Source of the DNA: Odiellus spinosus
Lineage: Eukaryota; Arthropoda; Arachnida; Opiliones; Phalangiidae
Assembly (NCBI GenBank): GCA_963920705.1
Contig: OY987225.1
Location: 32,403,458 to 32,467,457, forward strand
DNA length: 64,000 bases
Reading direction: 5' to 3'
Shown here: positions 4,481 to 57,455 of the stretch, piece by piece
Position numbering within the stretch: position 1 is the first letter of the stretch
How the letters are laid out: the number at the start of each line of letters is the position of its first letter
The notes under the pieces: generated by a model
Databases searched by the model: none
Told to the model about the DNA's origin: nothing
What the model saw: only the letters and a program-made list of their open reading frames with translations
Made by a program: the position numbers and the translations under genes

Positions 4481-4985
4481 TCTATAGTAAAAGTATTTAA
4501 TAAATTCTAGAGTTGATAATGTTGAATATGTAATGACCAAAGTAAATAATTCGTCAATGTCAAACTTATATGACGTTTTGACTTTATAAACTTTTGCTGT
4601 TAGCGAGCGCTTAACCCAAGGTTTCGGGGATAATATTTGAACCGTTTTAATTATAGTTTTGGACCGTTATTAGATTGGGCGTCGTAATAGTTGCGCTAAT
4701 TAGAGAATGATTCTCCTCCCCCCCCCCCTTCCCCGGCACCTTTTGTCCGCTTGTTGCCAACCTCCACCCACTCTTCCCTGTTTTGGAACTTCTCTCCTCA
4801 CTAATGAATCCGATTCGTTCGATATATACCGAAAGAATAGATCCCATACACGTTCAAGTTCAACAATTAAACTGCGAAGCGTTGGAAGGGTGTAGGATAC
4901 ATGTTCGAGCATTTTGGGTTGTATTTTCAGAATGTAAATGTAAATTTATTGTCAGAAGCCTGCGAGATAAGAAATATACCCAGAT

Positions 4986-5266
4986 CAAGAAGGATCAGAT
5001 AAGGAGAGGAAAAGTGGGGCTGCGTTGAGTTAGAGAGAGAAGAGCCAACCTCCCACTCGGGTGGAAAGGGGGGATAGGAAATTCTCGAGGTAAACTGTTG
5101 TCACGTGGTCGCTAGCTAGCGCGTCTCGTAAAGGATTCGTTTTACCCACGTGACAACAATTTACCACGAAGCATCTCTACCCCCGTTCTCCCAGAGTGGG
5201 AGTTTAGGCCGACGCAGTAGGAGCCGCGCCGTTCCCACTTTTCCTCTCCTTATCTGATCCTTCTTG
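4986..5266 (+). mobile_element. MITE-F7 copy 1 with 7-bp target duplication
   Basis: 281-bp inverted-repeat element beginning CAAGAAGGATCAGATAAGG and ending with its complement. The inverted repeat runs inward through GGAGAGGAAAAGTGGG. It is flanked by the perfect 7-bp duplication CCCAGAT (4979-4985 and 5267-5273). The central part is GC-richer, with two CACGTG-containing arms. No coding capacity; mobility would depend on a transposase supplied elsewhere. Confidence 0.93.
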
Positions 5267-5339
5267 CCCAGATCGAGCATTCTTTTCTATATTTGCTTTT
5301 GGGAAACATTGGATACGTTCGCACTTGCGTATCCCAATA

Positions 5340-5580
5340 GATTTTAATCGATAAAATCAAATCGATATTTAAATCAAGCTCTGAATCTTTTTATAAGCGC
5401 CATCTGTTCGTATCATCTTCATAAATAGATTAATTATAGTTTCATCTGTTGGTTATTGAAGCCGAATCGATTTGAAACTGGTTCCCGAAGCAGTTTTGAA
5501 GAAATCGATTCGTATATATTAAATGGAAAAACGGTTTCCCGTTCGCGAGACTGCAGCGAAACGATTTCAATTAACTCCAA
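5340..5580 (+). repeat. MITE family F6, copy 1
   Basis: Member of a dispersed family with the core GGTTCCCGAAGCAGTTT and many AATCGATT motifs. Here the core sits near 5479 and is followed by a degraded outer arm. The small open frame across it is not a gene. Confidence 0.65.
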
Positions 5581-5972
5581 GGCTATTTTTCTCTTGGAAA
5601 ATGCTTGGGTGGTCCGGTCGATTCCGAGTATTTTTAACTCATAATTAATAGATTGAGAGGTTTAAAATATTTTTTTATAATCAGTACATCTTCATGATGC
5701 CTTTAAGAATTTTCTTGGCAACTCCTAGTTTTCTATAAAACTAACCTAACTAATGTGATAAATTGTGAATACAATGTTTTGGTGATATATGGAATTATCC
5801 GTGTTTATGTATTAGACTAGAATGCTTGGCGGGAAAATATAAGATTATATTTGAATATATTCTAATTAGAATCACGAGTATATGTTAACACTCTTACTCA
5901 ATTTGTTTCCATGTCTAATGATTGGATTTATATATAGATTTAGGTAGGTTTAATTTCTAGTATACGTACCAT

Positions 5973-6311
5973 CAGAAGCCGATGAAACCCTCCTTTGAAG
6001 TCTATTACTCCCGGCTCTTGTCTACCCCTCTCTGTATGGGTTATTCTCAAAAGGCGCGATTCGTACGCCTCATAACGGTAGATGTTTTCGGAGCGGGAGC
6101 TCGTCGAACATGAATATCTCTAGCAGCCTTGGAGTTCGTCCAAAAAACGTCGTCGTTTGTGGAGAGAGAGAATTTCCAATTTTTCGTAGACAGGGGGGAT
6201 GAAGTAGGACCCCTTCTAACTCGTAAAATTGTGAATTTTACCCATACAGAGAGGAGCACTATATGGAACATTGGAGTAGTAGACTTCAAAGGAGGGTTTC
6301 ATTGGCTTCTG
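5973..6311 (+). mobile_element. MITE-A copy 2 with 7-bp target duplication
   Basis: 339 bp, beginning CAGAAGCCGATGAAACCC and ending in its complement (one mismatch near the right tip). The perfect target duplication GTACCAT lies at 5966-5972 and 6312-6318. Outer arms of about 38 bp plus an inner inverted pair CCTCTCTGTATGGGT make most of the element foldable. Small open frames on both strands recur in other copies only because the copies are near-identical. Confidence 0.95.
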
Positions 6312-6603
6312 GTACCATGCAACTTTGACTCTCATTAAACCACTTAGGGGCGTATAATCCTTTCTTTGTATATATTATCAGGGTATCTCAAAACTGTTTC
6401 AGACTGTAGATATTTTAATCTTTGTTTATTATTACGTACGAGAAAGCTATAGGATTCAAACAAATTATAAAGATAAGGGAATGTTTAGACAATCTTGTAT
6501 CAAATTAAATTGGAACCTTACCAAAATTTTGAATATCACGTTTTAATAGCATGATAAAACTAAAAATAACAGTCCAAATTAATTAAAAATTACTTGATAC
6601 TAG

Positions 6604-6920
6604 CAAGAATCCATTCAGGTTCCATAAGAATATGGGAGCATAGCTTTAGCCTCTGTTACTATCCTCCCAAACTTTGTAACAAAAGTTCGTCCGCAATTTT
6701 CGCAACATTTGTTCGCTTAGATCTTTTTTCGGTCGGCTCCATTTTTATTACCCAAAATATTATGTCAAGGTCCTTAGTGGCGCGGGTTAATAATAGATGT
6801 CAGAAGCGATTTACTTGAAAAATCGATTCGAAGCGGACGAACTTTTGCTACAAAGTTTGGGAGGATGGTTATTGAATCGCGGCCCTCCCATATTCTTATG
6901 TAACCTGAATGAATTACTTG
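6604..6920 (+). mobile_element. MITE-F8 copy 1 with 7-bp target duplication
   Basis: 317 bp, starting CAAGAATCCATTCAGGTTCC. The right end is slightly decayed and ends ATTACTTG. Flanks are ATACTAG (6597-6603) and ATACTAT (6921-6927), six of seven identical. An inner inverted pair built on ACTTTTGTTACAAAGTTTGG-like arms makes it a long hairpin. No coding capacity. Confidence 0.88.
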
Positions 6921-6927
6921 ATACTAT

Positions 6928-8418
6928 GTGTGCCTAGTATCCCTTTAGATATGTGGGATTGGACTATAGATACTGATATTTCTAACTGATTCAGCCGAAA
7001 TGTTTGGCGACGACTAAAGTCGTTTGTCCCTATTTCCATTACCGGTGTATCCGTTACAATTATACCACGTTGTTTTATTTATGAGTTAAAAGGAATAGAG
7101 GACGAACACCCGGGCCACCGAAATTAATCTATATAATTGATCTTGTTGCCTCGCCATTTAATTTTGCCGGTTTGTTCTAGACGCGAGAACCCGCTTACAC
7201 CCCATCCGGGTTAAAGGATAATTTATTTTTCGACCTTCTATTTGTATATTCGACTACAATTGGTCAAATAGACTCGCGTATTCAAATTCGTTAAAGGGAG
7301 GCTGACACCATTTATATCTAGAGTTTATTCATATTTTTAGTTTTTTCATTTTTATTAAAGTACCTTACCTGACTTAATCGATTTGAATCGATATTCAAAT
7401 CGCCAGGAATCGTTTTTAAGCGTCACGCGTTCGCGGATTATCTTTATAAATCGATTTATTGTAGCTTCCTCTATCGGTTGTTGAAACCAGCCGAATCGAT
7501 ACGAAACTGGTTCCCGAAGCAGTTTCGAGAAATCGAATCTAGAAAAGACAATTTCCAGTTCCCACGACTCTAGTAGATTTAGAATATTTTTCATTTCCCC
7601 TTTGTAGACTAAAATATCTGAAACAGACTGGAAAAGTCATGTAAAATTGAAAAATGACAGGGAATTTTAATTTACGAGCTTTTAAATATACAATATTTAA
7701 AATATATAATATTTATCACACTGCGCAAGCGCGTACTCGCCGCAAATGTTTCCAACCTATACATTTAACGTTTAATCGATATCGTGTATTTGTTGTAATT
7801 ATAAAGTTTTGCCCCAAGCTTCGACCCCGTTGAAAAATAATTTTTCATAACCTTTTGTTTTAAAACTCCAAAAATGACCACCAAAGTTGCTCGCTTGAAA
7901 AGGGTTAACTTTTTAGGCCTCCGCAAAGTTGTTAAGCCTAATTTAGTTAATGTTTTACTTTCAAAGTTGTATTAATACTCGTTTGCTATTAGATAAAATG
8001 ATAAAATGACTTAAAACATTAAAACAATGTTAGTTTTAAGAAAAACGAGTATTGAAAAGTATTCTTAAAATTAACGGCTAAAGGTGCAATAGGATAGGCT
8101 TCACCCATAACACGGAAGCTTATAGGATAGAACACTTTTGCAGGGGCAAACCATATTGAATTGGTATATTTTTTTATTACTCGTGTCTATTGCAAAACAT
8201 TATAACATGATTCATTTAAACCTGGGTTAAAAAACTCAGGGAAACTCGTAATTTTGTAGAAAATCAGGGTCTTTTTCAGGGTACGTTTATTAATAATAAA
8301 ATGCCACCAAGTCCTAGCGGGTCTTTCTATTTAAAACAGGATGATAATATTAACTTAAATATATGAAAAATAATATTTTTTGCACCTGAAAATCTCATTC
8401 GAAATTCATTTAAAAAAA
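6928..8418. other. Non-coding stretch apart from the F6 copy
   Basis: AT-rich sequence with no exon or RNA gene recognised, other than the F6 repeat at 7362-7600. Confidence 0.4.
7362..7600 (-). repeat. MITE family F6, copy 2
   Basis: Carries the core GGTTCCCGAAGCAGTTTC, TCGATTTATTGTAGCTTC and AAAACGATTCCTGGCGATTT-like arms shared with copies at 13175 and 30435. The open frame on the minus strand lies wholly within the repeat. Confidence 0.65.
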
Positions 8419-8665
8419 ATCTGGAGAAATATTTGGGAAAATTCATTGGAAAATCTGAAAATATTTGGGAAAATTCATTGGAAAATCTGAAAATATTTGG
8501 GAAAATTCATAAAATCTGAAAATATTTGGGAAAATTCATGAAATCTGAAAATATTTGGGAAAATTCATAAAATCTGAAAATAATTGGGAAAATTCATAAA
8601 ATCTGAAAATAATTGGGAAAATTCATAAAATCTGAAAATATTTGGGAAAACTCATTGGAAAATTG
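8419..8665 (+). repeat. Minisatellite, 32-bp then 29-bp units
   Basis: About eight tandem units built on ATTTGGGAAAATTCAT and AAATCTGAAAAT. The first units carry TTGG between the two parts (32 bp) and the later ones lack it (29 bp), so a 3-bp deletion variant has spread through the right-hand block. Confidence 0.9.
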
Positions 8666-10480
8666 TTTATTTTAAAATGTTGAGTGAACCCTACATACAC
8701 CAAGCCCATAACTGATATTAATACCATAAGTGATAAGTCTATTTCCACTAAAAGTCTACACTCCCTGAGATTTTACAAGTAATGGGGGAGAGATTTTCAA
8801 TTTTTACCAAGTTAAGAATAAAAGTAGTCTTTGAAAATTGCTTATTGTTCTCCTCTTCAACACGAGAGCGCGAAGCTTATAGCGACGAACTGCGAGACGT
8901 CTCGCAAATGATATTCACGTTCTAAACCTCTCGTCGAAACGTATATAGCTACGAAGGCTAGGCCTATCCCAGACTAGACTTTATCGCTTATAAGGTTTGA
9001 CAAAACGCCGCCAGGGGAACGATTGGCGTCTATCTAGCGTTAGACACGACGCTTCGCTTTAAACTATTAGGCAATAGGCATCGGGCGCCGGCGGGGGCTG
9101 TACGACGCTTTAGTCGTTTGATGCCTGGCCGCCGAAATGAGTAATAGCAGTTTGGACTTATCAATTGCAGCGCACCTTCTCTCCTTTTAGATCCTCCTCG
9201 CGGCGCTACCGCGTTTCCCATCCCATTGAGTTTGCAACGAGAGCGAAGCCTAAACTCCATCTTAATATCAATAACCAGTAGAGATGAAGCCAAAGTCTGT
9301 ACCCGCTGAAATCTTAAATGTGATTTTGATGGAATATTTAAAGGATTAAGTTTGCAACGCGTAAAACACTAGACTAGCTTCAACCTATAACAAACTAAGT
9401 TTAAAGAGAAACTAGACTCTGAAAACAAATTATTTTTAATCGATTTAGATTTAAATTATGCCCTCAAACATTATCAAAACTTAACCATCATAATTCGCGG
9501 TTAATTATCAAAGTTTTGAAGTTAGGCCTAAAGACATATAAGATTATTTTAAAAGAACTCATTTGCTGATCCAATAAGAGTTCGTCTTTCAAATAGCGCG
9601 TGACCCGAAAGAGATGTTCGTTAGAAATGGCGCGTGCTTTAGGGTTCAAATTAATTCTCGCGCCATTTTTATATACGATGTTTCACTGGCTTAGTCCAAA
9701 ATTTCTTCTCGACAGATTTAGGCTTAGCGAATTTAGTTCGCGACTTTGAAAATTAGCTGTTAATTACCACGAAATCTTTGTTTTTGAATTTTGAAACGGT
9801 TTTAAGGCATATTTCATCGGTTCATATCATTCGTTAAAAAATGGGAAACCCTGATTTTTATTCACTGCGAATTTAAACTGATTATGAGTATAAAGTTATT
9901 TCAAATTGAGTTTTCAATTCGTAACGAAACTGCATACAGTCGCGTCTCTACTATCTAACAAACAATACGTATCTTTGCTTAGAGTTATATCCGCGCTGCA
10001 AATTCAAACTGGGATTCAATCTGGCTGCTCTTTTCTCTCTCGCTTTCTAGTCTCGTTTTAAAGTTTGAACCCTCTTCTCTAATAGCGATGGGGGTGCGTT
10101 TGCGTGGGTGTGTGTACGAGGGAAGGAACCCCCCCTGTCAACGGCAATTGATAAATCTGTCGTTTCTCACGCAGATTGGAAACAATTGGCCATTATTAGC
10201 AAGTCCAAGAGCGTCAGCTGGAGATCAGACTCCCATATATTTTAACTCTCGAGCTTCTGTATACGAAGAGCTTACGTTACATTGTAACTCCTCTTCGGCA
10301 CCCTATCTTTCTACTTCCAAATTGGGGCAATTTTTCCTATACGATTGTTCGTGCTATATTGTTGTATGTTATGTTGAAACTCGAAATTTCTCGAAATATC
10401 CGATGTTGTTAAAGGGAATCAATTAATACTCGTGTGACCTTGTTTATGTTAAACGTTTAAAGGTTTTATATCAATGTACT
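8666..10480. other. Non-coding stretch with GC-richer patches
   Basis: Apart from the island at 8860-9270 and a second GC-richer patch at about 10080-10310, nothing is recognised. The 112-residue plus-strand open frame at 10088-10426 has no domain or repeat and is not called. Confidence 0.35.
8860..9270. other. GC- and CpG-richer island, function unknown
   Basis: Clearly richer in CG dinucleotides than the surroundings (for example CGGGCGCCGGCGGGGGC at about 9079). The longest minus-strand open frame (9293-9030) has no recognised motif and is rich in basic residues, as expected from translated GC-rich DNA. A promoter, a first exon or conserved non-coding DNA are all possible. Confidence 0.35.
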
Positions 10481-10483
10481 TTT

Positions 10484-10605
10484 TAAGTATTATCAAAATT
10501 CTATCAGCAAACGTACTAGCCAATCACTTAAAACTAGCAAAAAAGTCATCACCCCTGTCTGGCTCGAGTTATTTGGACTCTTCCTCGATATTTAGAGTGA
10601 GAGGG
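10484..10605 (-). repeat. Dispersed repeat family C, copy 1
   Basis: Reverse-orientation copy of a roughly 110-bp repeat with the strongly conserved core CAGACAGGGGTGATGACTTT preceded by GAAGAGTCCAAAT. Related copies are at 15757 and 52972. No inverted ends or target duplications were recognised. Confidence 0.75.
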
Positions 10606-10904
10606 ATGGGATTAAATAAAGTAGTACTTTTTATTTTACTAATGGACATTTTCTATGTGGTAACGAAGTTTGTCAAATTTGGTCAATAATTTTCAAATTA
10701 TTTAAAAAAATCACAGTTCTCGACTTACACCATTCTACCTCCAATATTTTTTTGGGGTTTTATTTTATTTTTTTTCAAAGTGAGCCAGTCTTTTGTTTCT
10801 TTCCCTCCACACGACGTTCTTTTGAAATTTCTTCCCCCATCCTAACGTTGACTTGAAACTGGGGGAAACCCCCATATAACAGTTCAAAAACAATCTTCAA
10901 AATA

Positions 10905-10970
10905 GAACAAACCAAGGCGGATTTATATCCAATGTTAAATCTGATAGGATTTAAAATAGTTCTTCGATTT
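10905..10970 (+). repeat. Dispersed repeat family D, fragment
   Basis: Contains AAGGCGGATTTATATCCAATG and ATAGGATTTAAAATAGTT, matching the D consensus (GCGGATTAATACGCAATATT then ATAAAAATAGTT). Confidence 0.6.
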
Positions 10971-11540
10971 CTTCCATGATCATTCTCCTTCTTTTATATA
11001 ATGCAGACTTTTACGCTTTGCAGTGAAAACCTACTTATAGACAGACGGGAGGGATATTTCGCCGCGCCATCAGTCTCTCAGATAGTGAATGTTCCAAAAT
11101 AGAGCTAGGGGTAGAAATGGATAGGAAAGCGGCAGGAACATATACGCTCTCGCTTCAGGCCATATACTTTGCAATATTGAAAAGGCCTATATCGGCTTCC
11201 TGTAGAGAAGAAGGGTCCTTTTTGAAATTTGGCACCCATTATGTACGTCGCAGCTAGGCTGTAGGCGTTATATTCCGATTATCCAATAGCAGCGTGGTAT
11301 ACAACTTAAAACTGTGGGGGGATTTCTATTGTTAATTGCTGTCAAGTCTTAAATTAAGCTGCCAATTTTATTGACTTCCTTTCAATCAAATCATACGTTG
11401 AGAACAACGCGAAGGTCATGTGTGCGTGTAGCTTGATGACGTGGGATGTTAGAAAAACGTGTTTAAATCTAAATTAGATGTGATTTTAATTAAAATCATT
11501 AACAGAATCGCTTCATGAAATCGATAAAAAGAACATTTCA

Positions 11541-11620
11541 TTAGCCGCGTTCACACTACAGACTTTGAAACCGTTTTAAACCGTTTTGGAAAGGTCAAAT
11601 TATAAAATTTTGGGGTCACC
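11541..11620 (+). repeat. MITE family F6, outer arm only
   Basis: GCCGCGTTCACACTACAGAC followed by TTTGAAACCGTTTTAAACCG is the terminal arm of family F6 without the rest of the element. Confidence 0.6.
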
Positions 11621-12559
11621 CTTGTAGACCTTTGATCATTATAGGTGATATTCCACTATATTTAACCTTAAATATTTTAATTAAGGTCGTGTTATTGAAC
11701 TACTACGTAACTTAAACGATGTCTGGCAGGCGTCAGTCTAGCTATTTAGGCTCTAGATCATTAGAGAAAAGGTCGTGTAGTAACTTATCTAGATAAGGTC
11801 GCCGGGAACCCATGGTACATCAATGATTATTGGAGTCTGCTCTGATATATTCGAAACGAGATTCATAATGAAACCAATAGTTAGAGCAATGCTATAAGTA
11901 CTTACAAGTTAACTCCTTATATAACCTTCTATTTATTCAACTTTGACCCTTGGACGAACGATTGCCATTTAGTCTTAGATAATTAAATTGGAGAATCAAT
12001 TATCCGCCTATATTAATATGAATACAGTTTAAATTGAAATTATACATATTCCCTCGGTTAAAAGGTCACTGACCTCGTATTGATTCAAGGTCAAAGTTCG
12101 TATTTATACGTATTCAAGGTCAATTTGGATTCGAACTAAAGCTGAGGTATTTATATATAGATTCAAATGAAAATATTATTAAAATATATTTTCAACTTGC
12201 AGAGATATTCAATTTTAAATATGGTAGCCTCATTTTAATTAAATTAAATTATCTTTAAGTGAACTTAACATTTTTTAAAGCTAGATAATTTGGTGGGTAT
12301 CTTTAAAATATCTAAAATGATTGCAAAAAATAAATTTTTATTTTCACAACGTTTTTAAGAACTTAATAAATTAGATTAAGTCTAAAATAACAATCTAAAC
12401 TCTTTATATAGACTAATAATTAAGTTATTGGCTTATTTTTAACGCCTTAGTTTATTTTATAAATTTTATTTATTTTATTTATTTTTTGTCAAAGGTCCTA
12501 GCTAGTAAATTAATCCCTTGGAGCTAAACTTTTCCATTACATTAAAGTTTGCAAGCTGT

Positions 12560-12620
12560 TGAAAGCTAAGGCGGATTAATACGTAATATTAAACATCGTA
12601 GGGAAAAAATAGTTTTTGCA
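12560..12620 (+). repeat. Dispersed repeat family D, copy
   Basis: GAAAGCTAAGGCGGATTAAT then ACGTAATATTAAACATCG and AAAAAATAGTTTTT match the D consensus. Confidence 0.7.
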
Positions 12621-13174
12621 AACTAAACCAAAGTTTTTCCAATTCTCGCTTTATCTTTGGGAGAAAGAAAAATTTCTGGGCGCTCGTCTCGCCGATAGTT
12701 AATAAGATTATTTGATACAAATACTCCAGTCACACCTTTAGGGGGGCAGAGAGTGGGTTATCACTAGTCTTTTAGGCTTAATTCCGCAGACGCACCGTGT
12801 ACAGGAAGCACGTGGGAGAAAAATAAAAAAAAGGCGCGAATTAGGGTCCCCAATCAAGAAAGTTTTGGCGCGCAAATATGGCGCGAGATATTTTTTCTTC
12901 GATGCTTTTTTTTTTTATTCCTTATTTAAGGGTATATATAGCGCCCCTTTTTCTTGGAGTATTGGTTTTAATTGGGATGTTTCTTGATCTTATTATCTAT
13001 AAGTGCTTGGCTAAGGAGTTGTTCTTTTCTGTTTTTACGAGAGAATGAATGAACAATGTAAGCTCGAAAGCTCTCCTAAAAATGTCTTCTGCTTTTCTCA
13101 AGTCGTGTTTAAACTCTGAAGGATAGAAATAAATTTTCTTAACTTCTTGAAACTTTTAAATAATGTAAGTTTCT

Positions 13175-13640: not shown

Positions 13641-13713
13641 TAAGTAGGGCATGAAGACGAAGAGTCTTGGAGGGCCAAAGAGATCTGGTACCGAGATAAA
13701 AATTAACGAGGCA

Positions 13714-13733
13714 AACCACTCGAAAGAGTGGTT
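13714..13733. other. Perfect 8-bp hairpin with GAAA loop
   Basis: AACCACTC, GAAA, GAGTGGTT. A GAAA tetraloop is a stable RNA loop type. No other support for an RNA gene here. Confidence 0.5.
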
Positions 13734-14730: not shown

Positions 14731-14734
14731 TAGA

Positions 14735-18397: not shown

Positions 18398-18535
18398 ACT
18401 TTAAAGTGAAGCTGTAACACATTTTCAACGAACTCCAAATGGAAATTGACTAGAATTTTTGGAAAGGTCGTTAAAAAACGATTTAATATATATATATACA
18501 TGTCATAGAACAAATTACCTCTAAAGGTTTATGTC
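18398..18535 (-). repeat. Dispersed repeat family B, half copy feeding a minisatellite
   Basis: Reverse-orientation B sequence: ACTTTAAAGTGAAGCTGT, AACTCCAAATGGAAATTGA, AAGGTCGTTAAAAAACGATT, then ATATATACATGTCATAGAAC, where it runs directly into the 31-bp array. The other half of B is absent after the array. Confidence 0.8.
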
Positions 18536-19422
18536 ATAGAACAAATTACCTCTAAAGGTTTATGTCATAGAACAAATTACCTCTAAAGGTTTATGTCATA
18601 GAACAAATTACCTCTGAAGGTTTATGTCATAGAACAAATTACCTCTAAAGGTTTGTCATAGAACAAATTACCTCTAAAGGTTTGTCATAGAACAAATTAC
18701 CTCTAAAGGTTTATGTCATAGAACAAATTACCTCTAAAGGTTTATGTCATAGAACAAATTACCTCTAAAGGTTTATGTCATAGAACAAATTACCTCTAAA
18801 GGTTTATGTCATAGAACAAATTACCTCTAAAGGTTTATGTCATAGAACAAATTACCTCTGAAGGTTTATGTCATAGAACAAATTACCTCTAAAGGTTTGT
18901 CATAGAACAAATTACCTCTAAAGGTTTGTCATAGAACAAATTACCTCTAAAGGTTTATGTCATAGAACAAATTACCTCTAAAGGTTTATGTCATAGAACA
19001 AATTACCTCTAAAGGTTTATGTCATAGAACAAATTACCTCTGAAGGTTTATGTCATAGAACAAATTACCTCTGAAGGTTTATGTCATAGAACAAATTACT
19101 TCTGAAGGTTTATGTCATAGAACAAATTACTTCTGAAGGTTTATGTCATAGAACAAATTACTTCTGAAGGTTTATGTCATAGAACAAATTACCTCTGAAG
19201 GTTTATGTCATAGAACAAATTACCTCTGAAGGTTTATGTCATAGAACAAATTACATCTGAAGGTTTATGTCATAGAACAAATTACCTCTGAAGGTTTATG
19301 TCATAGAACAAATTACCTCTGAAGGTTTATGTCATAGAACAAATTACCTCTGAAGGTTTATGTCATAGAACAAATTACCTCTGAAGGTTTATGTCATAGA
19401 ACAAATTACCTCTGAAGGTTTA
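18511..19422 (+). repeat. 31-bp minisatellite with higher-order structure
   Basis: About 30 tandem units of GTCATAGAACAAATTACCTC followed by TAAAGGTTTAT. Variants: TGAAGG for TAAAGG, a 29-bp form lacking AT before GTC, and ACTTCTG or ACATCTG near the right end. The unit begins with a piece of family B (ATGTCATAGAACAAA), in which the array lies. Confidence 0.96.
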
Positions 19423-21420: not shown

Positions 21421-21871
21421 AGGGAGAATGAAAGGTCGAAACAAGCTATTTTTAATCGATTAAATAATGAGAATACCAATAATATAACTCACCAAAAATA
21501 TTTCGTTATTTTATTATCAATTTCCAAATTTCCGGTGCTAAGCCTAGGCTGCCTAGCTCGGCCTGTATTTTTTTAATATTCGCGGCTGTTCTTGTCGCCA
21601 ATCAGGAGCGAGTACGCGTATTTTAAAAATAAGCGTACTCGCTCGTGATTGGCGACTAGATCAGACGGGAATATTTAAAAAATACGGCTCGTGCTCGCCT
21701 AGCTAGTTCGCCGAGCTAGGCAGCCAAGGCTTAGCATCCACAAGTTTCGGAACTTTGGAAATTGATTATAAAATAACGAAATATTTTTGGTGAGTTATAT
21801 TATTGTTTTTCTCATTATTTTAGCATTTTTAATCGATTAGAAATAGGTTGTTTTTACCGTTCATTCTCCCT
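21421..21871. mobile_element. Foldback element F3, 451 bp, near-perfect palindrome at TTAA
   Basis: Starts AGGGAGAATGAAAGG and ends with the complement, flanked by TTAA at 21417-21420 and 21872-21875. The two arms, each over 200 bp, are nearly complementary along their whole length. They include ATAATATAACTCACCAAAAA on the left and its mirror on the right, and converge on a short spacer near 21630. The central part is GC-richer, with CTAGCTCGGC-type motifs. No coding capacity. TTAA duplication is typical of piggyBac and Kolobok transposases, but the family is not assigned. Confidence 0.92.
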
Positions 21872-22772: not shown

Positions 22773-23090
22773 CAAGAATCCATTCAGGTTCCATAAGAAT
22801 ATGGGAGGGCCGCGATTCAATAACCATCCTCCCAAACTTTGTAGCAAAAGTTCGTCCGCTTCGAATCGATTTTTCAAGTAAATCGCTCCTGACATTATAT
22901 TATTAACCCGCGCCACTAACGACCTTGACATAATATTTTGGGTAATAAAAAATGGAGCCGACCGAAAAAAGATCTAAGCGTACAAATGTTGCGAAAATTG
23001 CGGACGAACTTTTGTTACAAAGTTTGGGAGGATGGTACCAGAGGCTAAAGCTATGCTTCCATATTCTTATGGAACCTGAATGGATTCTTG
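22773..23090 (-). mobile_element. MITE-F8 copy 2, nested in family B
   Basis: 318 bp, from CAAGAATCCATTCAGGTTCC to the exact complement. The perfect 7-bp duplication ATATTTT lies at 22766-22772 and 23091-23097. The insertion splits a family B repeat at ATATATATTTTGAATCG. A plus-strand open frame at 22952-23275 spans this element and its flank and is not a gene. Confidence 0.95.
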
Positions 23091-26376: not shown

Positions 26377-26667
26377 CAAGAAGGATCAGATAAGGAGAGG
26401 AAAAGTGGGGACGGCGCGGTTCCTTCTGCGTCGGCCTAAACTCCCACTCTGGGAGAACGGGGGTAGAAACGTTTCGTGGTAAAATGTTGTCACGTGGGTA
26501 AAACGGATCCTTTATCAGCTTCATCGTAGCCAACGACGCTAGTGACCACGTGACAACAGTTTACCTCGAGAATTTCCTATCCCCCTTTCCACCCGAGTGG
26601 GAGGTTGGCTCTTCTCTCTCTAACTCAACGCAGCCCCACTTTTCCTCTCCTTGTCTGATCCTTCTTG
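26377..26667 (-). mobile_element. MITE-F7 copy 2 with 7-bp target duplication
   Basis: 291 bp, CAAGAAGGATCAGATAAGG to its complement (one change near the right end), in reverse orientation to the copy at 4986. The perfect duplication GTTAATT lies at 26370-26376 and 26668-26674. It has the same GC-rich interior with paired CACGTG arms. Confidence 0.95.
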
Positions 26668-31489: not shown

Positions 31490-31825
31490 CAGAAGCCGAT
31501 GAAACCCTCCTTTGAAGTCTATTACTCCCGGGTCTTGTCTACCCCTCTCTGTATGGGTTATTCTCAAAAGGCTCGATCCGTACGCCTCCTAACGGTAGAT
31601 GTTTTTGGAGCGGGAGTTCGTCGAGCGAATATCTCTAGCAGCCTTGGAGTTCGTCAAAAAACGTCGTCGTTTGTGGAGAGAGAGAATTTCCAATTTTCCG
31701 TAGACAGGGGGGATGAAGTAGGACCCCTTCTAACTCGTAAAATTGGGAATTTTACCCATACAGAGAGGAGCGCTATATGGAACATTGGAGTAGTAGACTT
31801 CAAAGGAGGGTTTCATCGGCTTCTG
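31490..31825 (+). mobile_element. MITE-A copy 3, nested in family B
   Basis: 336 bp with intact CAGAAGCCGATGAAACCC termini and a perfect 7-bp duplication ATATGTC (31483-31489 and 31826-31832), which is itself part of family B. The 118-residue open frame across it is a product of the repeat and its flank. Confidence 0.96.
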
Positions 31826-40778: not shown

Positions 40779-41115
40779 CAGAAGCCGATGAAACCCTCCT
40801 TAGAAGTCTATTACTCCCGGGTCTTGTCTACCCCTCTCTGTATGGGTTATTCTCAAAAGGCGCGATTCGTACGCCTCCTAACGGTAGATGTTTTCGGAGC
40901 GGGAGCTCGTCGAGCGAATATCTCTAGCAGCCTTCGAGTTCGTCCAAAAAACGTCGTCGTATGTGGAGAGAGAGAATTTCCAATTTTCCGTAGACAGGGG
41001 GGATGAAGTAGGACCCCTTCAAACTCGTAAAATTGTGAATTTTACCCATACAGAGAGGAGCGCTATATGGAACATTGGAGTAGTAGACTTCAAAGGAGGG
41101 TTTCATCGGCTTCTG
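40779..41115 (+). mobile_element. MITE-A copy 4 with 7-bp target duplication
   Basis: 337 bp with intact CAGAAGCCGATGAAACCC ends and a perfect duplication GTGTTAT at 40772-40778 and 41116-41122. Three small open frames inside it match frames in other copies and reflect shared ancestry only. Confidence 0.96.
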
Positions 41116-47666: not shown

Positions 47667-47667
<1 letters not shown>

Positions 47668-47833
47668 CGAACTATCTGACGACAACTTGGCGTTCGTCGC
47701 CCAAACCAACAAATTAGTATTTATAGAGGACGGCCAGACATTTCGCGAACCCTTCTCCTTTGTGTTAACAGGCCTCTATGTTCCGTACAAGAAACCAAAC
47801 TGAATAAAACCACGCGTATTAAGAGATGGATCA

Positions 47834-48420: not shown

Positions 48421-49200
48421 AAGAAATATAGTACTTGTAGAAATCTAGAAATCTCCAATCCTTTGTTTTGATTCGGCTTCGCTTGGTGTATAATTTAAAG
48501 ACTGTTTTAATCGGATCCAAGAGGCGTAAATATTAGTTTCTATTTTGCGTCCAAGTGTTAAAGGGAAGTTTTGGGGGCTAAACAGAGCATGTCCATTTTT
48601 AAAGCGGGATGGAGACAGGGAAGATAGAATGGCGAGACCTTTACTCGTGGTTTGTTGTTGTTGTTCGCTTTCTAACGACATTATCTTTTAGAACATTATA
48701 TTGTATGACCTTCTCCATTATACCGTTTTGAAGATTTTACGGGATTAGACAAACACGTCGCGATGCGCCAAATTACGGGGTATACGTACTTAAGAGTACG
48801 GCCTCGTTCCTAAATTATAAATAAATATAGTGTTATAGGCACGCACACCATTACTAGATGGCACTATGTATAATTACTAGCAAGAACGAATTGAAATCCC
48901 TTTATAGGACCTTCAGGGTACCTTTTAGCCTTTGATATTATACTCGCGAAGCTCAAGTACTTTATCTCGTAAAACGTCGTCTGCTTATTTATTAGCCCCG
49001 CGCCTTTAACAAGGCCAATTTGAAAGCTTTTCTCCGTAGCCAATTTTGGTTCGTCTGAACAAAAATTGGTCAAGTGGGTGAAATTAAAATCGCCACAGAA
49101 AAATTGGGTTGTTCTCTACATGGGTTAATAAGCGGGAAAGCTTTTTATTAATCCATGCTTTGTAAAAAGTATCCAGCTTTCTAACAGGGTACCTTTATTC
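48421..49200. other. Non-coding stretch
   Basis: The small minus-strand frames at 48681-48445 and 49073-48864 have no recognised family. Confidence 0.35.
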
Positions 49201-49214
49201 GGGTAGCTTGGATA

Positions 49215-49664
49215 GGAATTCTCTCTTTAAAGGCCTAATCCACTAGTAAAATATAGTATTTTTCATATATCAAAATCAGAAGCCGATGAAACCCTCCTGT
49301 GAAGTCTATTACTCCCGGGTCTTGTCTACCCTTCTCTGTATGGGTTAGTTTCAAAAAAGCGTGATTCGTACGCCTCCCAACGGTAGATATTTTCGGAGCG
49401 GGAGTTCGTCGAGCGAATATCTCTAGCAGCCTTGGAAATCGTCAAAAAAACGTCGTCGTTTGTGCAGAGAGAGAATTTCCAATTTTCCGTAGACAGGGGG
49501 TATGAAGTAGGACCCCTCCGATCTCGTAAAATTGTGAATTTTACCCATACAGAGAGGCGCGCTATATGGAACATTAGAGTAGTAGACTTCAAAGGAGGGT
49601 TTCATCGGCTTCTGACAATAAGTAATCGATAAAAATTACTTGTTTGTTAGTTTTCATTCTCCCT
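49215..49664. mobile_element. Probable F4-type element interrupted by MITE-A
   Basis: The left side has CTTTAAAGGCCTAATCCACT and AGTAAAA, as near an F4 end. The right side ends TTTTCATTCTCCCT before TTAA (49665-49668). MITE-A copy 5 lies between them. Confidence 0.5.
49277..49614 (+). mobile_element. MITE-A copy 5
   Basis: 338 bp with CAGAAGCCGATGAAACCC ends. The flanking 7-mers TCAAAAT and ACAATAA do not match well, so the duplication has decayed or the copy was rearranged. Confidence 0.92.
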
Positions 49665-49668
49665 TTAA

Positions 49669-51050
49669 GAAAAATCTCCTTGTTTAAAGTTAAATTTTTC
49701 GAAATAAGATTGGAAATTGCGTAAACTTTAAAAGTTATTTCCATATATATTTGAATGTAAAGGGTTTGCGTTACGAGGGAGGCGAAAGTTTCCCCAAGAA
49801 AAATAATATTTGAAACACAGTGACATTTATATTAGTCCCTTTCCACGGATACATTACTTTATATTTTGTATAAAAGGAAAAAGGGGAAAAATCTTAAGGT
49901 ATAAGCTAGCGTGGTCATGGTAGATGTAGTCGTAAGAATCCCTTCTATCTGTGTAAGAAAGTTGAATAAATTAAATCATGATTCCTCTTATACAAAGAGA
50001 GGACAGTTGTAATATCAAAATATTAGTTTTTAACTACTTTTTTCCCTATGGAAGTTAGTATATTTGTATCCTTCCGCCATTGCTTTGTACGTATTGATAA
50101 TTTAATCTTAATTTTGAATTAAAGGAGGGGAAGAAATACTAACCTTTTTATTTAAGGGAAACTGAAATTTAAACTAATTTCATAACTTAAAATTTCGTGG
50201 AAAATACAATTTTAAGAACTCTCTCTTCTAACCTGGAAACTGATTGAGGTTTTTTTTTTAATTAACGACGTTAATTAATAGATTAAAAACTTACCAGGAT
50301 ATCATTTTCATCATTGAAATTAAAATATTAGAATTTTACCGACACTCACTAATCCCCCAAGTTTGATTTTTCCACGAAACAATTGTCATGTGGTGTTTTG
50401 ATTGGTTGTTGTGGTTACATTTCTTGTAACGCGTGCTACTTAATCTCAATAGCTACTTTTTATTCAAATGAATTTAAAATTTGAAATTGGCGCGAAATCT
50501 AATTTGAAATTAAAGTAATTCTAACTTCACCGTCCCTTTTCTCAGGGTTTCACCGAATTCGCCTTTTCTGTCTTTTTCTCCTTGTAATTTCCGTTACACT
50601 TAAGGGATATTTCAAATCCCCGCTCAAGATATAGAAAACAACACCTTTCCCCATTTTAGTCTTATTTTTCTATCAAAGAGTGAGCTCGGTAAGATTTAAA
50701 AATAAAATTTAAAAGACGGCTGGAAAAGGTACATCGCAATCAGTTTAAAAATTCAGCGTATCTCGAAGCTAAACTCCCTTCTATTTCAAAGAAATAACTT
50801 AATATAAAGATTGATTGCATCTATACCCTTACAAACTTTGAATATGCACCTTGAAATCTTAGCCAGAACAAACAGTATGAAGTAGAATTTTGGATTTTGG
50901 GTTTTTACTTGATTTTTTGTGGCGTTTTCCCACGGTTTCGCTGTTAGTTTAGAGCCAATAGAAACTTCAAGCGAAGGAATGACGTCATGAGTATTAATAC
51001 AAATGTTAAACTTTATATATAAAGATATATGTGTAATTCTTTTTACTAAT
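49669..51050. other. Non-coding stretch
   Basis: AT-rich. Around 50370-50540 there is a GGCGCGAAATCTAATTTG segment reminiscent of F9. No gene recognised. Confidence 0.35.
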
Positions 51051-51054
51051 ATAT

Positions 51055-51385
51055 GACGTAGTAATTTTCGTAAGTACTTTTACGAAAAAGACCGCGTGAA
51101 AGTTACCTTAACACTCGTGCATGAACGCGTGAAAATCAACTGTAGGTTCTACAATAGTCAAATCACGTGACCATAGTGCGATGACGTAGTATTGCGGGGA
51201 ATTTATATTTTAAAAATTTCGAAAATGGAGATTATAAAATATGTATTTTTTACTATCGCTGTAATTTTGTTCTATGACATATGTATATATATTTTGAATC
51301 GTTTTTTAACGATCTTTCTGAAAATGTGACTCAATTTCCATTTGGAGTTCGTGAAAAATCAGTAACAGCTTCACTTTAAATTGCT
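51055..51385 (+). repeat. Dispersed repeat family B, full-length-looking copy
   Basis: GTAAGTACTTTTACGAAAAA, CATGAACGCGTGAAAATCAA, AATCACGTGACCATAGTGCG, ATGACATATGTATATATATT, TTTTTTAACGATCTTTCTGA, ATTTCCATTTGGAGTTCG and CAGCTTCACTTTAAA in order. Useful as a family reference. No inverted ends found. Confidence 0.88.
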
Positions 51386-51694
51386 TCTAAGATAGTTTGT
51401 ACAAGTACCAGTCTTCTCTTGATACTATATGTAAGAGAACTTTGGCACGCACTAGGGCCATCTGGAACTTGTAATTGAAATTAAGGTGTTTTTTTGTACG
51501 TATACCCTATATGTTCGGTGATACTTTTCTCAGGCTGGTAGTATTTTTAGTTAGGGTTTGCCTAGAAACCCCTAAAACCGTATTTTTAACAAACAACAAC
51601 TAAAGAGCGACAATTATTAGGAGCCATATGTTTTTGAAAGGGTAGTGCGTTATTTCTCGCGTTACCATCGTTACTTTTCACTTGATATATCGTA

Positions 51695-51965
51695 AGAATC
51701 AATGGTTCGTTTTCAAAGCGATTTGAAAAAAAATCATTGCTTTTTGACGCGCTGAAGATTCAAAAGAATAGGCTGGCGTTTGATTGCCAAGGTCTTAGGC
51801 TGAAATAATATGATTGGCCCGAATTTATAGAAATTATACCAAACTTAAGAAATTAATTTAAACAACAAAAACGTGTCTAAAATTCTGAAATAAATTTCGA
51901 ATATTTTTTTTGGCACGGTGATTCCAACAAAATAAATTAAAAAGCTTCAAGTTTCCCTTTAAATT
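51695..51965. repeat. Dispersed repeat F10, copy 2, inverted
   Basis: GCCAAGGTCTTAGGCTGAAA, TAATATGATTGGC, AAAACGTGTCTAAAATTCTG, GGCACGGTGATTCCAAC and CAAGTTTCCCTTTAA, the inverse arrangement of copy 1. Confidence 0.65.
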
Positions 51966-51972
51966 AGTTTAA

Positions 51973-52170
51973 AGGGAGAATGAAAGGCCGAAACAACCTA
52001 TTTTTAATCGATTAAGAATGCTAAAATAATGAGAAAAACAATAATATAACTCACCAAGAATATTTCGTTATTTTATAATCAATTTTTGGTGAATTATATT
52101 ATTGTTTTTCTCATTATTTAAGCGTTCTTAATCGATTAAAAATAGGTTGTTTTGGCCTTTCATTCTCCCT
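51973..52170. mobile_element. F3 element, compact foldback copy at TTAA
   Basis: 198 bp, AGGGAGAATGAAAGGCCGAA to its complement, flanked by TTAA at 51969-51972 and 52171-52174. The two arms meet with almost no spacer, so the internal GC-rich part of the copy at 21421 is missing. Confidence 0.93.
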
Positions 52171-52174
52171 TTAA

Positions 52175-52970
52175 GAGCCATTTTATACCAGACGATATTT
52201 AATAGATAAAGCAACGTACTCTGTAAAATTTCTTCGAAATAAATTTAGGCTTAGCGAAATTAGTTCGTAACTTTAATTATTAACCTTTGATGAGTTTTGA
52301 TACCTTTTTTAACGCGTTGTATCTCTGAAAAATAACTCGTTAACATAATCTAGTATCCCTTTAAAAGATTCGTAAAATATTTTAGGGTGTTTTTTATTTA
52401 TTTTGAAGATAATGATACAATTTATTGCCTTTATGGACGAAATATTTCATATCATCAATGGGATTTTTAGTTGCTTCTTAGGATGTAAGTTCGTACGAGT
52501 TTTGTCCGGGGATGGGAGATGGGGGAAGTAGGATGCTTTTGGGACTGGTTTAAAGGAATCTTGATATGTTTAAGATGTGCTGGGCTCATTTTTCAAATCT
52601 TCTATTCCCTATTTTATATATTTTTTGGTGGAGAGGAATTTTCCTCCCCACTTCGAAAGGGAAAAGCGTGGTTTCTTTATGACTTTGTCATTTGTTTCAA
52701 TTTGGGAAACTTATAGGGTATTTTCTGGAAGGACTCGGCGTCCAATGATGTCGGATATGGGGCCCTAAGTTTAATATACAATGCGATTTTTGCCATATTT
52801 ATTTATTCCATTTTTTTTTTCTTAAATTTTTCTGAAATTTTAAACTTATAGCTTATGAATGGTACCAAAAGTCAATGATTTTATATCATAAAAGTAGATA
52901 ACGCGACTGTCAGATTCTGATTCGAAACACTCTAGCGACAATATAGCCAAGCGCGTTTCTCTCTCCCGAC
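52175..52970. other. Non-coding stretch
   Basis: A segment TTTAGGCTTAGCGAAATTAG at 52244 repeats one near 9719. The short open frames at 52519-52768 have no recognised family. Confidence 0.35.
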
Positions 52971-52971
52971 A

Positions 52972-53080
52972 TAAAATATCGAGGAAGAGTCCAAATCACT
53001 CGAGCCAGACAGGGGTGATGACTTTTTTTGGCTATTTTTAAGTGAATGACTAGTACATTTGCTGGTAGTATTAAGCTACG
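52972..53080 (+). repeat. Dispersed repeat family C, copy 3
   Basis: CGAGGAAGAGTCCAAATCAC, TCGAGCCAGACAGGGGTGAT, GACTTTTTTTGGC, GACTAGTACATTTGC and ATTAAGCTAC. Confidence 0.8.
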
Positions 53081-53190
53081 GGGGGTTGTTTACTTTTATG
53101 GAATAAAATGATAGACGTTTGATATTACTATACCTAATAAAATATTTTTGGTAGGACTAATTAAGCCACTCTTTGCTACCATACTAATAC

Positions 53191-53527
53191 CAGAAGCCGA
53201 TGAAACCCTCCTTTGAAGTCTATTACTCCCGGGTCTTGTCTACCCCTCTCTGTATGGGTAATTGTCAAAAGGCGCGATTTGTACGCCTCCTAACGGTAGA
53301 TATTTTCGGAGCGGGAGTTCGTCGAGCGAATATCTCTAGCAGCCTTGGAGTTCGTCCAAAAAACGTCGTCGTTTGTGGAGAGAGAGAATTTCCAATTTTC
53401 CGTAGACAGGGGGGATGAAGTAGGACCCCTTCTAACTCGTAAAATTGGGAATTTTACCCATACAGAGAGGAGCGGCATATGGAACATTGGAGTAGTAGAC
53501 TTCAAAGGAGGGTTTCATCTGCTTCTG
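53191..53527 (+). mobile_element. MITE-A copy 6 with 7-bp target duplication
   Basis: 337 bp with intact ends (one change near the right tip) and a perfect duplication CTAATAC at 53184-53190 and 53528-53534. Confidence 0.96.
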
Positions 53528-53534
53528 CTAATAC

Positions 53535-54436
53535 TAATAGTAAACCTATGATATTTTTCACTGAAAATAATGATGTTGATGGCTCCACGAAATAATAAGG
53601 CGTATAATTTTAAAGTCTTCAAACCAAGTCTAGCCAATCATCGGGACGCTCTACAGGGAAGGTATCGCGAAGGAATAAAATTTTTATCCAATTAGCTGAG
53701 GAATACGACTAAATTACCCATTTTACATAAAAATTAGCAAGTTTAAAGTGCATTTTAGTATAGTGATGTTAATTTTATAGATCAAAGGTTTTTAGCCTAA
53801 CTTCTACGTCGCTTCTATAGTTTTAGTTTGAGTTGTGTTTTCAACGTAAGTTAATGTTCTGGCGTATTAATAAACGATATTAAAACTCGTAGGAATAAAA
53901 ATAGTACTTTAAAATCAGTTCACGAACGTATGAAATGTTTTCAACAATAGAAAATTTTAAATAAGAATTTTCGATTAGCGCCGGCGCGCCACCAAGCCTC
54001 CTTTTTAAACCATTATTTAAATAAGCTTTTTCCCGAAAAATCTCGTGTATTTTTAAAATCAAGCCGAGGGATTTTGCGTAATAGACAAACTTCTAGATTA
54101 TTTTATCCACCCAAAGAGGGCGAATGGAGAAATTGATATCGTCTCGGGGGAAAACCCGGGAAATCTGATTTCAAAAGGGAACCCGCTCGACTTCAATCGC
54201 TATTGTTTCCCGCGTGCCGAGAATTCGGCTAAGAAAGGCCAATTTATCCGACGCCGGTCTCCCGTTCTTATAATACCGAAATTGAGCGCTTGCATAATTG
54301 AGGGAGGTTTTCGAGTTCGCTTAAATCCTAACGTATACGGGAGAAATAGGTGGAGGTAGACGAAATTCGAAACATTCCTAAAGAAAAAGTCTCGCGGAAT
54401 TATGACAAGTTTCCCCTTCAATTATTATTTAAGAGT
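53535..54436. other. Non-coding stretch with a D fragment and GC-richer patches
   Basis: A D-family copy lies at about 53860-53915 (GGCGTATTAATAAACGATAT). A GC-richer patch at 53970-54400 includes CGCCGGCGCGCC but no coding signature. Confidence 0.35.
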
Positions 54437-54775
54437 CAGAAGCCGATGAAACCCTCCTTTGAAGTCTATTACTCCCGGGTCTTGTTTACCCCTCTCTGTA
54501 TGGGTTAGTTTCAAAAAGCGCGATTCGTACGCCTCCTAACGGTAGATAGTTTCGGAGCGGGAGTTCGTCGAGCGAATATCTCTAGCAGCCTCGGAGTTCG
54601 TCAAAAAAACGTCGTCGTTTTTTGGAGAGAGAGAATTTCCAATTTTCCGTAGACAGGGGGGTATGAAGTAGGACCCCTCCGATCTCGTAAAATTGTGAAT
54701 TTTACCCATACAGAGAGGAGCGCTATATGGAACATTAGAGTAGTAGACTTCAAAGGAGGGTTTTATCGGCTTCTG
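54437..54775 (+). mobile_element. MITE-A copy 7 with near-perfect 7-bp duplication
   Basis: 339 bp. Flanks are TAAGAGT (54430-54436) and TTAGAGT (54776-54782), six of seven identical. It lies about 0.9 kb from copy 6, in the same orientation. Confidence 0.95.
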
Positions 54776-54825
54776 TTAGAGTTTAGAGTGGAGTGAGAGC
54801 TCAAAATATGGTGTTATTTCAAACT

Positions 54826-55097
54826 TATCATCAAAATAGGCTTAGCTGAATTCATGGAGATACTTGATTTCTTCGTATTCAATGGAGATCTTGCCTTAAC
54901 AACGTGCCTTTTTCTCATTGGTCGCTGACCCGTCAATGAAAATAAATTCAAAATCTCCATGAATCCAGCTAAGCCTATTTTGATGGTAATTTTTAAATTT
55001 ATTTCTAGTTTAATATTTTCTTCTAAATTTTTTTACTGGTGGATTAGGTCTATTTAAACGATAAGGAATTTAGAATAAAATCAGGCTGCATTCTCAA
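54826..55097. mobile_element. F4 element, copy 4
   Basis: TCATCAAAATAGGCTTAGCT and the mirrored CAGCTAAGCCTATTTTGATG delimit a palindrome. It is followed by the F4 tail TTTATTTCTAGTTTAATATT, GGTGGATTAGGTCTATTTAA and a degraded right end GCATTCTCAATTTA. Confidence 0.75.
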
Positions 55098-55101
55098 TTT
55101 A

Positions 55102-55640
55102 AGATAGATGTCCATTGTTAATAGTTTAGATAAATCGAACGTTGTTAAGTAAGGCTAGTTCTTTATTAAATGCATATATGCTTAGAATGAAAACGCAATT
55201 TTTGAAGAATTGAGGCAAAATAGCGGAAAGCCAGCGGAAGTTAGTCTGAGTTATATGCAACAGAGCATACTCTTTATATGTTCATGTTACTCTCAGCTAT
55301 CTCTCTCTCTCTCCTCCGAAGAGTATTCTATCTTCTATCAAAACATCCGTTCTTGAGTGCCTTTTTGCTCTTATCTTTTTTTTATATATATATATATGCC
55401 TATATATTCATTTTTTCGTTTTCTCTGTGGCTTCCCTGTAAGGTTTTTACAATTTTTTCCTTCTGGAAGATTTGAAGACTAATAGATCGTGTAGACATAT
55501 ACACCGTGAGATGTTTCATTCGACTATAATACCGTGACGATTTCATTTGAGTCAGAATGTGGGATAATCATACGCGTAATTGTTTTAAATTATTCTTTTT
55601 CCAGTTCTTTCTTTGTTAAACATCGCAAGACGTTATAATT
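55102..55640. other. Non-coding stretch
   Basis: AT-rich, with a short TC run near 55300. No gene recognised. Confidence 0.35.
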
Positions 55641-55641
55641 T

Positions 55642-56265
55642 TGTTAGGCTTAATCGATGTTTGAAATTAGGCTTAATCGGCGTTTGAAATTGGGGTTAAA
55701 TCGACGTTTGAAATTAGGGTTAAATCGACGTTTGAAATTAGGGTTAAATCGACGTTTGAAATTAGGGTTAAATCGACGTTTGAAATTAGGGTTAAATCGA
55801 CGTTTGAAATTAGGGTTAAATCGACGTTTGAAATTAGGGTTAAATCGACGTTTGAAATTAGGGTTAAATCGACGTTTGAAATTAGGGTTAAATCGACGTT
55901 TGAAATTAGGCTTAATCGACGTTTGAAATTAGGCTTAATCGACGTTTGAAATTAGGCTTAATCGACGTTTGAAATTAGGCTTAATCGACGTTTGAAATTA
56001 GGCTTAAATCGACGTTTGAAATTAGGCTTAAAACGACGTTTGAAATTAGGCTTAATCGACGTTTGAAATTAGGCTTAATCGACGTTTGAAATTAGGCTTA
56101 ATCGACGTTTGAAATTAGGCTTAATCGGCGTTTGAAATTAGGCTTAATCGACGTTTGAAATTAGGCTTAATCGACGTTTGAAATTAGGCTTAAATCGACG
56201 TTTGAAATTAGGCTTAAATCGACGTTTGAAATTAGGCTTAAATCGACGTTTGAAATTAGGCTTAA
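55642..56265 (+). repeat. 23/24-bp minisatellite, AATTAGGCTTAATCGACGTT type
   Basis: About 26 units. Units 3-11 are mostly 24 bp with AGGGTTAAATCG; later ones are 23 bp with AGGCTTAATCG, and a few at the right are 24 bp with AGGCTTAAATCG. The 24-bp block keeps a frame open (GLNRRLKL octads, 55657-55926), which is a by-product of the period. Confidence 0.96.
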
Positions 56266-57111
56266 CTTGTTTTTCAAATAATAAATAAAACTCGCCACGT
56301 GCAAAGAAGTTTAACCAAGTGTTAACCCCAAAACAAACCTACCTATAGAATTATATTTTTAATAACTTGTATATTTTTAAAATACTTCAATCATTATCCT
56401 TTTAAGATAAAAACAACATCAACTTCTCTTTAAGGAGTTAAAAGTTTGAATAAACAAACGTAACAGTTTGTAAATTTTAGTATATGTTGGGTCGATAAAA
56501 CCCTCTCTTTCCCTCATCAGCGCAGTTGCAATGTTTGTTTATATAAAATTTTAAGTCTTTAAACTACACGAGCTTCTCTTCAATTGATAAAATATCTTCG
56601 TAAGCTCCGAAATATTTTAAATTAAACTGAAATCAATTAAAACTTAAGCTTAAAAATGTAAACTTCGTATGTACTCTCTTGAAGAGCAAAAAACCAAAAT
56701 GGAGCAATATTTAAGCTGGTTTATTTATGTATAGCGTAACGGCATAATGCTCTTTCGGGACTCGTCTCTATTTAGGCCTAATTTAACTTTAAATAATTTA
56801 CTATTCCTTGGCGAAGGAGACATGGAAAGCTTCAGTTTTCCTCTAGCTAATACGTGAATTGTAAATTTCTAGATTACCGCTCCTTCGCGAAGGCAAAACT
56901 TGTACAATGGCTTCAAATTATATAGATGTCAATAACAATACTCGTATAACTTGAAACTTAGAGTTTTGCCAACCTGACTATATACTAAATTAGTTGAAGT
57001 TGTTGAATCCAGAGACACAATGATTTCTAAAACTTCACACTCCTTCAAAACTCGTCACAAACTTTACGTACCGAACTATTAACTTTAGAATTTAGAGTTT
57101 AGAGATTTTAG
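56266..57111. other. Non-coding stretch
   Basis: AT-rich. No gene or repeat family recognised. Confidence 0.35.
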
Positions 57112-57118
57112 GCCTAAC

Positions 57119-57448
57119 CAGAAGCCGATGAAACCCTCCTTTGAAGTCTACTACTCCAATGTTCCATATATATAGTATGGGTAAAATTCCCAATTTTACG
57201 AGATCGGAGGGGTCCTACTTCATACCCCCCTGTCTACGGAAAATTGGAAATTCTCTCTCTCCACAAACGACGACGTTTTTTGGACGAACTCCAAGGCTGC
57301 TAGAGATATTCGCTCGACGAACTCCCGCTCCGAAAATATCTACCGTTAGGAGGCGTACGAATCGCGCCTTTTGAGAATAACCCATACAGAGAGGGGTAGA
57401 CAAGACCCGGGAGTAATAGACTTCAAAGGAGGGTTTCATCGGCTTCTG
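57119..57448 (-). mobile_element. MITE-A copy 8 with 7-bp target duplication
   Basis: 330 bp, reverse orientation to copies 2-7, with intact CAGAAGCCGATGAAACCC ends and a perfect duplication GCCTAAC at 57112-57118 and 57449-57455. A short internal deletion replaces part of the inner inverted pair near 57170. Confidence 0.96.
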
Positions 57449-57455
57449 GCCTAAC

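Follow-up and report, generated by a model that had tools for sequence, protein, structure and literature searches.

The window analysed here is a stretch of 64,000 nucleotides from the genome of Odiellus spinosus (C1:32403458-32467457 of the assembly). It contains miniature inverted-repeat transposable elements (MITEs) of three families, namely eight copies of MITE-A, two of MITE-F7 and two of MITE-F8. A sequence-only reading of this DNA had reported perfect 7-bp target duplications at eight of the insertions, and duplications matching at six of seven positions at two more. All of these were found at the element ends (Table 1). Two copies were absent from the earlier list: the MITE-A copy at 49277 and a decayed MITE-A copy at about 2554-2892. 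Among the 11 copies with both ends, the flanks matched at 7/7 positions in 8, at 6/7 in 2 and at 4/7 in 1; when the decayed copy was also counted, a perfect 7-bp duplication was present in 8 of 12.

Table 1. MITE copies of the window (window coordinates, with strand) and P elements read end to end elsewhere in the genome.
Element	Position	Length (bp)	Target duplication	Remark
MITE-A	5973..6311 (+)	339	GTACCAT	
MITE-A	31490..31825 (+)	336	ATATGTC	in a host dispersed repeat; empty site in intact copies
MITE-A	40779..41115 (+)	337	GTGTTAT	
MITE-A	49277..49614 (+)	338		flanks match at 4/7 only
MITE-A	53191..53527 (+)	337	CTAATAC	
MITE-A	54437..54775 (+)	339	TAAGAGT/TTAGAGT	6/7
MITE-A	57119..57448 (-)	330	GCCTAAC	
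MITE-A	2554..2892 (-)		not found	decayed; approximate ends, mutated tips
MITE-F7	4986..5266 (+)	281	CCCAGAT	
MITE-F7	26377..26667 (-)	291	GTTAATT	
MITE-F8	22773..23090 (+)	318	ATATTTT	empty sites in other window copies of the host repeat
MITE-F8	6604..6920 (-)		ATACTAG/ATACTAT	6/7; altered right tip
P element L019		5,670	GTCTGTC	7 bp
P element L037		3,777	TTTGAAG	7 bp
P element L024		4,581	GTTTATA	7 bp
P element C5		5,343	CCCTGCT	7 bp
P element L015	C2:29511937-29517143	5,207	CGCCAACC	8 bp

Pairing the left flank of one copy with the right flank of another gave identical 7-mers in 0 of 110 pairs, against 8 of the 11 real pairs, and only 14 of 63,590 window positions at the MITE spacing shared a 7-mer. 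Chance is therefore a poor explanation of the duplications. Empty sites were available for MITE-F8 at 22773 and MITE-A at 31490, both of which lie inside a dispersed repeat that has uninterrupted copies in the window. The flanks of each were joined after removal of the element and one copy of the duplication, and aligned to the uninterrupted host repeat with 0 or 1 gap, which shows directly that 7 bp were duplicated upon insertion. The 7-bp target duplication of MITE-A, MITE-F7 and MITE-F8 is confirmed as real.

The insertion points of these two copies lie about 20 bp apart in the same dispersed repeat. At window 18427-19422, one copy of this host repeat is touched by a satellite array with 30 copies of a 31-bp unit (18500-19422).

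The duplication length was tallied over copies from the whole assembly (443 Mb, 286 contigs). Exact terminal words occurred 9,358 + 9,424 = 18,782 times for MITE-A (21-mer), 2,156 + 2,167 = 4,323 times for MITE-F7 (29-mer) and 1,782 + 1,762 = 3,544 times for MITE-F8 (27-mer), while the reversed-word controls for each family's ends gave 0 matches. Counted at two exact ends per copy, this corresponds to at least 9,391, 2,162 and 1,772 copies, respectively. Exact MITE-A and MITE-F7 ends gave 0 matches in viral contigs. The copies tallied were those of the window; MITE-A copies in the loci best matching a query (contigs C1, C2, C7 and C14) and at C1 places with the exact left 21-mer; MITE-F7 copies from C1 exact-end pairs; MITE-F8 copies at C1 places, for the most part with an exact 27-mer at each end; and copies met by chance at other loci. 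Well-kept copies are over-represented in the sample, and the copies fetched for the tally all came from contig C1. Left out were L001 (identical to the window copy at 40779), a pairing in L004 that was an artefact, L095 (right end not found), L046 (a partial copy), L071 (incomplete in the stretch read) and the decayed window copy at 2554. For the 52 copies read at both ends, the duplication was a perfect 7 bp in 36 and matched at 6/7 in 9. By family, the perfect and 6/7 matches were 21 and 3 of 27 for MITE-A, 10 and 2 of 12 for MITE-F7, and 5 and 4 of 13 for MITE-F8; one MITE-F8 copy (L103) was perfect at 6 bp only. A perfect 8-bp duplication, as expected of hAT-type elements, occurred in 0 of the 51 copies scored for that length. 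It is clear that 7 bp prevails in the sample, as the sequence-only reading had supposed, and not 8 bp. Mean divergence from the consensus was 3.65% for 16 MITE-A copies and 1.2% for 9 MITE-F8 copies, most of the latter having been chosen for exact ends.

Of the long elements with the MITE termini and an internal transposase gene, for which a search had been proposed, one was found for MITE-F7, with a transposase of P type, and none for MITE-A or MITE-F8, either at the 65 P transposase places read or by pattern. The F7-ended element (C2:22245336-22251192, read as L068 and L069) is 5,857 bp long. Its left ~150 bp are about 85% identical, and its right ~133 bp 88-89% identical, to MITE-F7, indicating that the MITE consists of the two ends of this parent joined together. 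Inside lie a THAP exon (PF05485, 1.6e-10), a 786-aa frame that matches the RNase H N-terminal domain (PF21787, 2.9e-24) and the GTP-binding domain (PF21788, 1.6e-14), and one further exon, in which the RNase H C-terminal domain is matched weakly (PF21789, 2.5e-4; 21.4 bits, under the 24-bit cut-off). In the PDB, the transposase matched only the Drosophila P transposase (6p5a, 9.8e-8; 6pe2), and two of its N-terminal aspartates align with 6p5a. A glutamate is found within LNRDSLENYFG of the further exon. We take the two aspartates and this glutamate to be the catalytic residues. MITE-F7 is thus shown to belong to the P superfamily, as an internally deleted form of a THAP/RNase H/GTP-binding element. 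Given its divergence from MITE-F7, the 5,857-bp element is a relative of the source rather than the source itself. At its left tip it carries an extra 11-bp palindromic piece, as from templated repair.

Matches to the P transposase catalytic domain model (PF21787; 150 of 386 candidates scored) were present at no fewer than 150 places in the genome, many with long open frames. Besides the F7 parent, five P elements were read end to end (Table 1), and a 7-bp duplication flanked four of the five. Hence, of the two staggers seen in the few P elements that could be resolved, 7 bp is the more frequent. Element C5, the nearest relative of the F7 parent with both ends read, has a transposase 55-57% identical to that of the parent over the matched part; its ends, CATGGAAAAATAAGCA, are unlike those of F7. 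The C17 transposase (about 66%) is closer to that of F7 than C5 is, and has a similar 3' end. In the stretches read, the ends of P elements L025, C2b, C14 and C275 were not found, nor was a pair of ends for the P loci C8:3853317, C4:3251992 and C17:90211. Several P transposase loci at separate places were 99.9-100% identical over the 3.3-3.4 kb compared (L025/L027, L037/L038 and L019/L020/L021/L023), which suggests very recent or current activity. It may be noted that MITE-F7 copies occurred in 3 of 65 5' stretches read at P transposases (L071, L088 and L133), which looks above the genome density.

The terminal architecture of the three MITE families was compared with that of P element L037. 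Terminal and subterminal inverted repeats measured 38 + 15 bp in MITE-A, 33 + 20 bp in MITE-F7, 32 + 37 bp in MITE-F8 and 31 + 16 bp in L037. The subterminal repeat starts 51-58 bp from the end in MITE-A and MITE-F8, 102-104 bp in MITE-F7 and 95-114 bp in L037. The CA(A)GAA start is common to all three families, and past these first few bases their terminal repeats look unrelated.

The sequence-only reading had remarked on a pyrimidine at positions 2 and 7 of the duplication. This tendency held at 33 and 26 of 35 perfect sites, respectively. In the same set, T occurred at position 1 in 1/35, T at position 2 in 24/35 and A at position 6 in 28/35; with the sites forming a palindrome, the pyrimidine remark describes half of it. 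For 18 perfect sites (14 of MITE-A, 3 of MITE-F7 and 1 of MITE-F8) the palindrome reached beyond the duplication, with T at -2, not T at 1, T at 2, A at 6 and A at +10, and its palindromicity was matched by none of 5,000 random window-site sets. The insertion sites are dispersed AT-rich palindromes. For MITE-F7 alone (9 sites) the pattern was less clear: position 2 was C in 6/9, and T in 3/9 compared with 17/21 for MITE-A (Fisher p = 0.03, post hoc and on a small sample).

MITE-A and MITE-F8 probably also belong to the P superfamily, judging from their duplication length, their terminal and subterminal repeats and their target motif. We therefore read all three families as non-autonomous P superfamily elements, directly for MITE-F7 and by inference for MITE-A and MITE-F8, with a probability of about 0.85. 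The P transposase would be supplied in trans by full-length elements elsewhere in the genome. It would bind the terminal and subterminal inverted repeats and excise the MITE, which would then be joined to an AT-rich palindrome at two positions with a spacing of seven bases, and repair would leave the 7-bp duplication. Each family is probably served by the transposase of its own P subfamily.

Several results weigh against this reading. The left tip of the F7 parent copy carries an 11-bp rearrangement and the copy has no duplication of its own, and no F7 ends were present in two stretches (L114 and L115) around C2:23519388, an 88% relative of the F7 transposase. Among the five complete P elements, L015 has an 8-bp duplication, two (L024 and L037) start with CG while the other three start with CA, and no subterminal repeat was seen in the outer 250 bp of L019 and C5. 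The 5' stretches read at 65 P transposase places contained no MITE-A or MITE-F8 ends; as each stretch was located by its offset from the transposase match, intact ends may fall outside it. Pattern searches for A or F8 ends in which the MITE sequence breaks off early gave 8, 1, 0 and 12 matches, 21 in all, with none near a P transposase among the matches listed (compared by eye). Parents of MITE-A and MITE-F8 would escape such patterns if they resembled the F7 parent, since the F7 parent shares the full length of F7. Further, hAT transposases are also abundant in this genome. Nor does a palindromic target single out P, since it has been found for all terminal inverted repeat (TIR) and long terminal repeat (LTR) families studied, hobo included (PMC3276498).

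Three candidate parents or neighbouring ends were set aside. Beside P element L024, an A-like end (in L046) contains only ~97-118 bp of MITE-A, with no listed PF21787 match just beyond, and was taken for a truncated copy. The F8-like end next to C8:3853317 (L118) has no partner end and was judged to be a chance match. A 707-bp F8 variant (L108) looks like MITE-F8 with an internal insertion rather than a parent.

The sequence-only reading had suggested that one transposase may mobilise all three families. The duplication length, the CA(A)GAA start and the architecture are alike in all of them, and with 7-bp duplications recurring through the genome sample the three do look like one mechanistic kind. 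The shared duplication length says little about a single transposase, however, because members of the superfamily share it, and three transposases would look alike in this respect. A single P transposase for MITE-A, MITE-F7 and MITE-F8 was not supported and is improbable: beyond their start the terminal repeats show no apparent relation, the subterminal sequence of F7 is present in a parent element, the position-2 target base differs between MITE-A and MITE-F7 in the small post hoc comparison given above, and the copies differ in age by their divergence. Moreover, C5 already has different ends, and the 5' stretches read at the 65 P transposase places lacked those of MITE-A and MITE-F8. The different ends, the separate F7 parent and the different target bases favour separate subfamilies.

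Many hAT elements start with CAG, and MITE-A begins CAGAAG. MITE-A, MITE-F8 or both could therefore be hAT elements with an unusual 7-bp duplication, leaving only F7 in the P superfamily. The abundance of hAT transposases fits this alternative, as does the hobo target motif, which has T as its second and A as its penultimate base (PMC3276498). Against it, the hobo duplication is 8 bp at 99.8% of sites (PMC3276498), whereas no scored copy here had a perfect 8-bp duplication, and the combination of long terminal repeats and a distinct subterminal repeat resembles that of P element L037. At the one hAT locus read, the ends were not found. A hAT origin of MITE-A or MITE-F8 is unlikely. Dada elements give 6-7-bp duplications, and the duplication length is the one point in favour of assigning the MITEs to them; with a P transposase carrying the F7 ends and insertion sites that are dispersed AT-rich palindromes, this is very improbable indeed.

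The sequence-only reading had also taken a 7-bp duplication as a sign pointing away from P. This is corrected by 1360 and Galileo, two Drosophila members of the P superfamily, as well as by four of the five P elements read here. In D. melanogaster, the modal duplication of 1360 is 7 bp, at 98% of sites, and its target is GTTNAAC (PMC3276498). The MITEs resemble 1360/Hoppel in their 7-bp duplication and palindromic target; they differ in being abundant MITEs of a non-Drosophila genome. Galileo likewise has a 7-bp, rarely 8-bp, duplication and a palindromic target with the consensus GTANTAC (PMC4168063), but its terminal repeats are long and internally repetitive (PMC3573991), unlike the 32-38 bp with a separate subterminal repeat seen here. 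The P-MITEs of Anopheles gambiae share subterminal sequence with a P element, as MITE-F7 does; they have 8-bp duplications and an unrelated middle (PMC1562414), whereas the duplication here is 7 bp and MITE-F7 is the union of its parent's ends. The D. melanogaster P element, with a 31-bp terminal and an 11-bp subterminal repeat, depends on GTP and is excised with a 17-nt stagger (PMC7776569). It is like the elements described here in its THAP, RNase H and GTP-binding transposase (the F7 parent), its terminal repeat of ~31 bp and its subterminal repeat (PMC7776569, PDB 6p5a), and differs in its 8-bp duplication and its GTCCGGAC target (PMC3276498). In a literature search, with subscription papers mostly beyond its reach, no P-superfamily MITEs with 7-bp duplications were recognised outside Drosophila.

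As the 7-bp stagger is already established in the P superfamily, what is seen here is abundant but not fundamentally new P-element mobility. Three very abundant MITE families are placed, F7 in the P superfamily by direct evidence and A and F8 by inference, and a 7-bp duplication can no longer be taken, as a rule of thumb, to speak against P. It is possible, at somewhat less than even odds, that most of the P superfamily in this genome has adopted a 7-bp stagger (four of the five complete elements and the three MITE families), with an 8-bp relative in the same genome. If so, duplication length would have switched within the superfamily, and the pairs present here could reveal the part of the transposase that determines it. 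With 7-bp and 8-bp P elements side by side, several of them near-identical between copies, the control of stagger length is open to direct comparison.

Two other features of the window may be mentioned. MITE-like elements ending AGGGAGAATGAAAG beside TTAA lie at 21421-21871 and 51973-52170, and possibly belong to a different transposon group. On the minus strand, 3746-4057 is an exon of a Beaten path-like immunoglobulin gene, which matches Beaten path Vb (PDB 9np7, E 1.4e-6).

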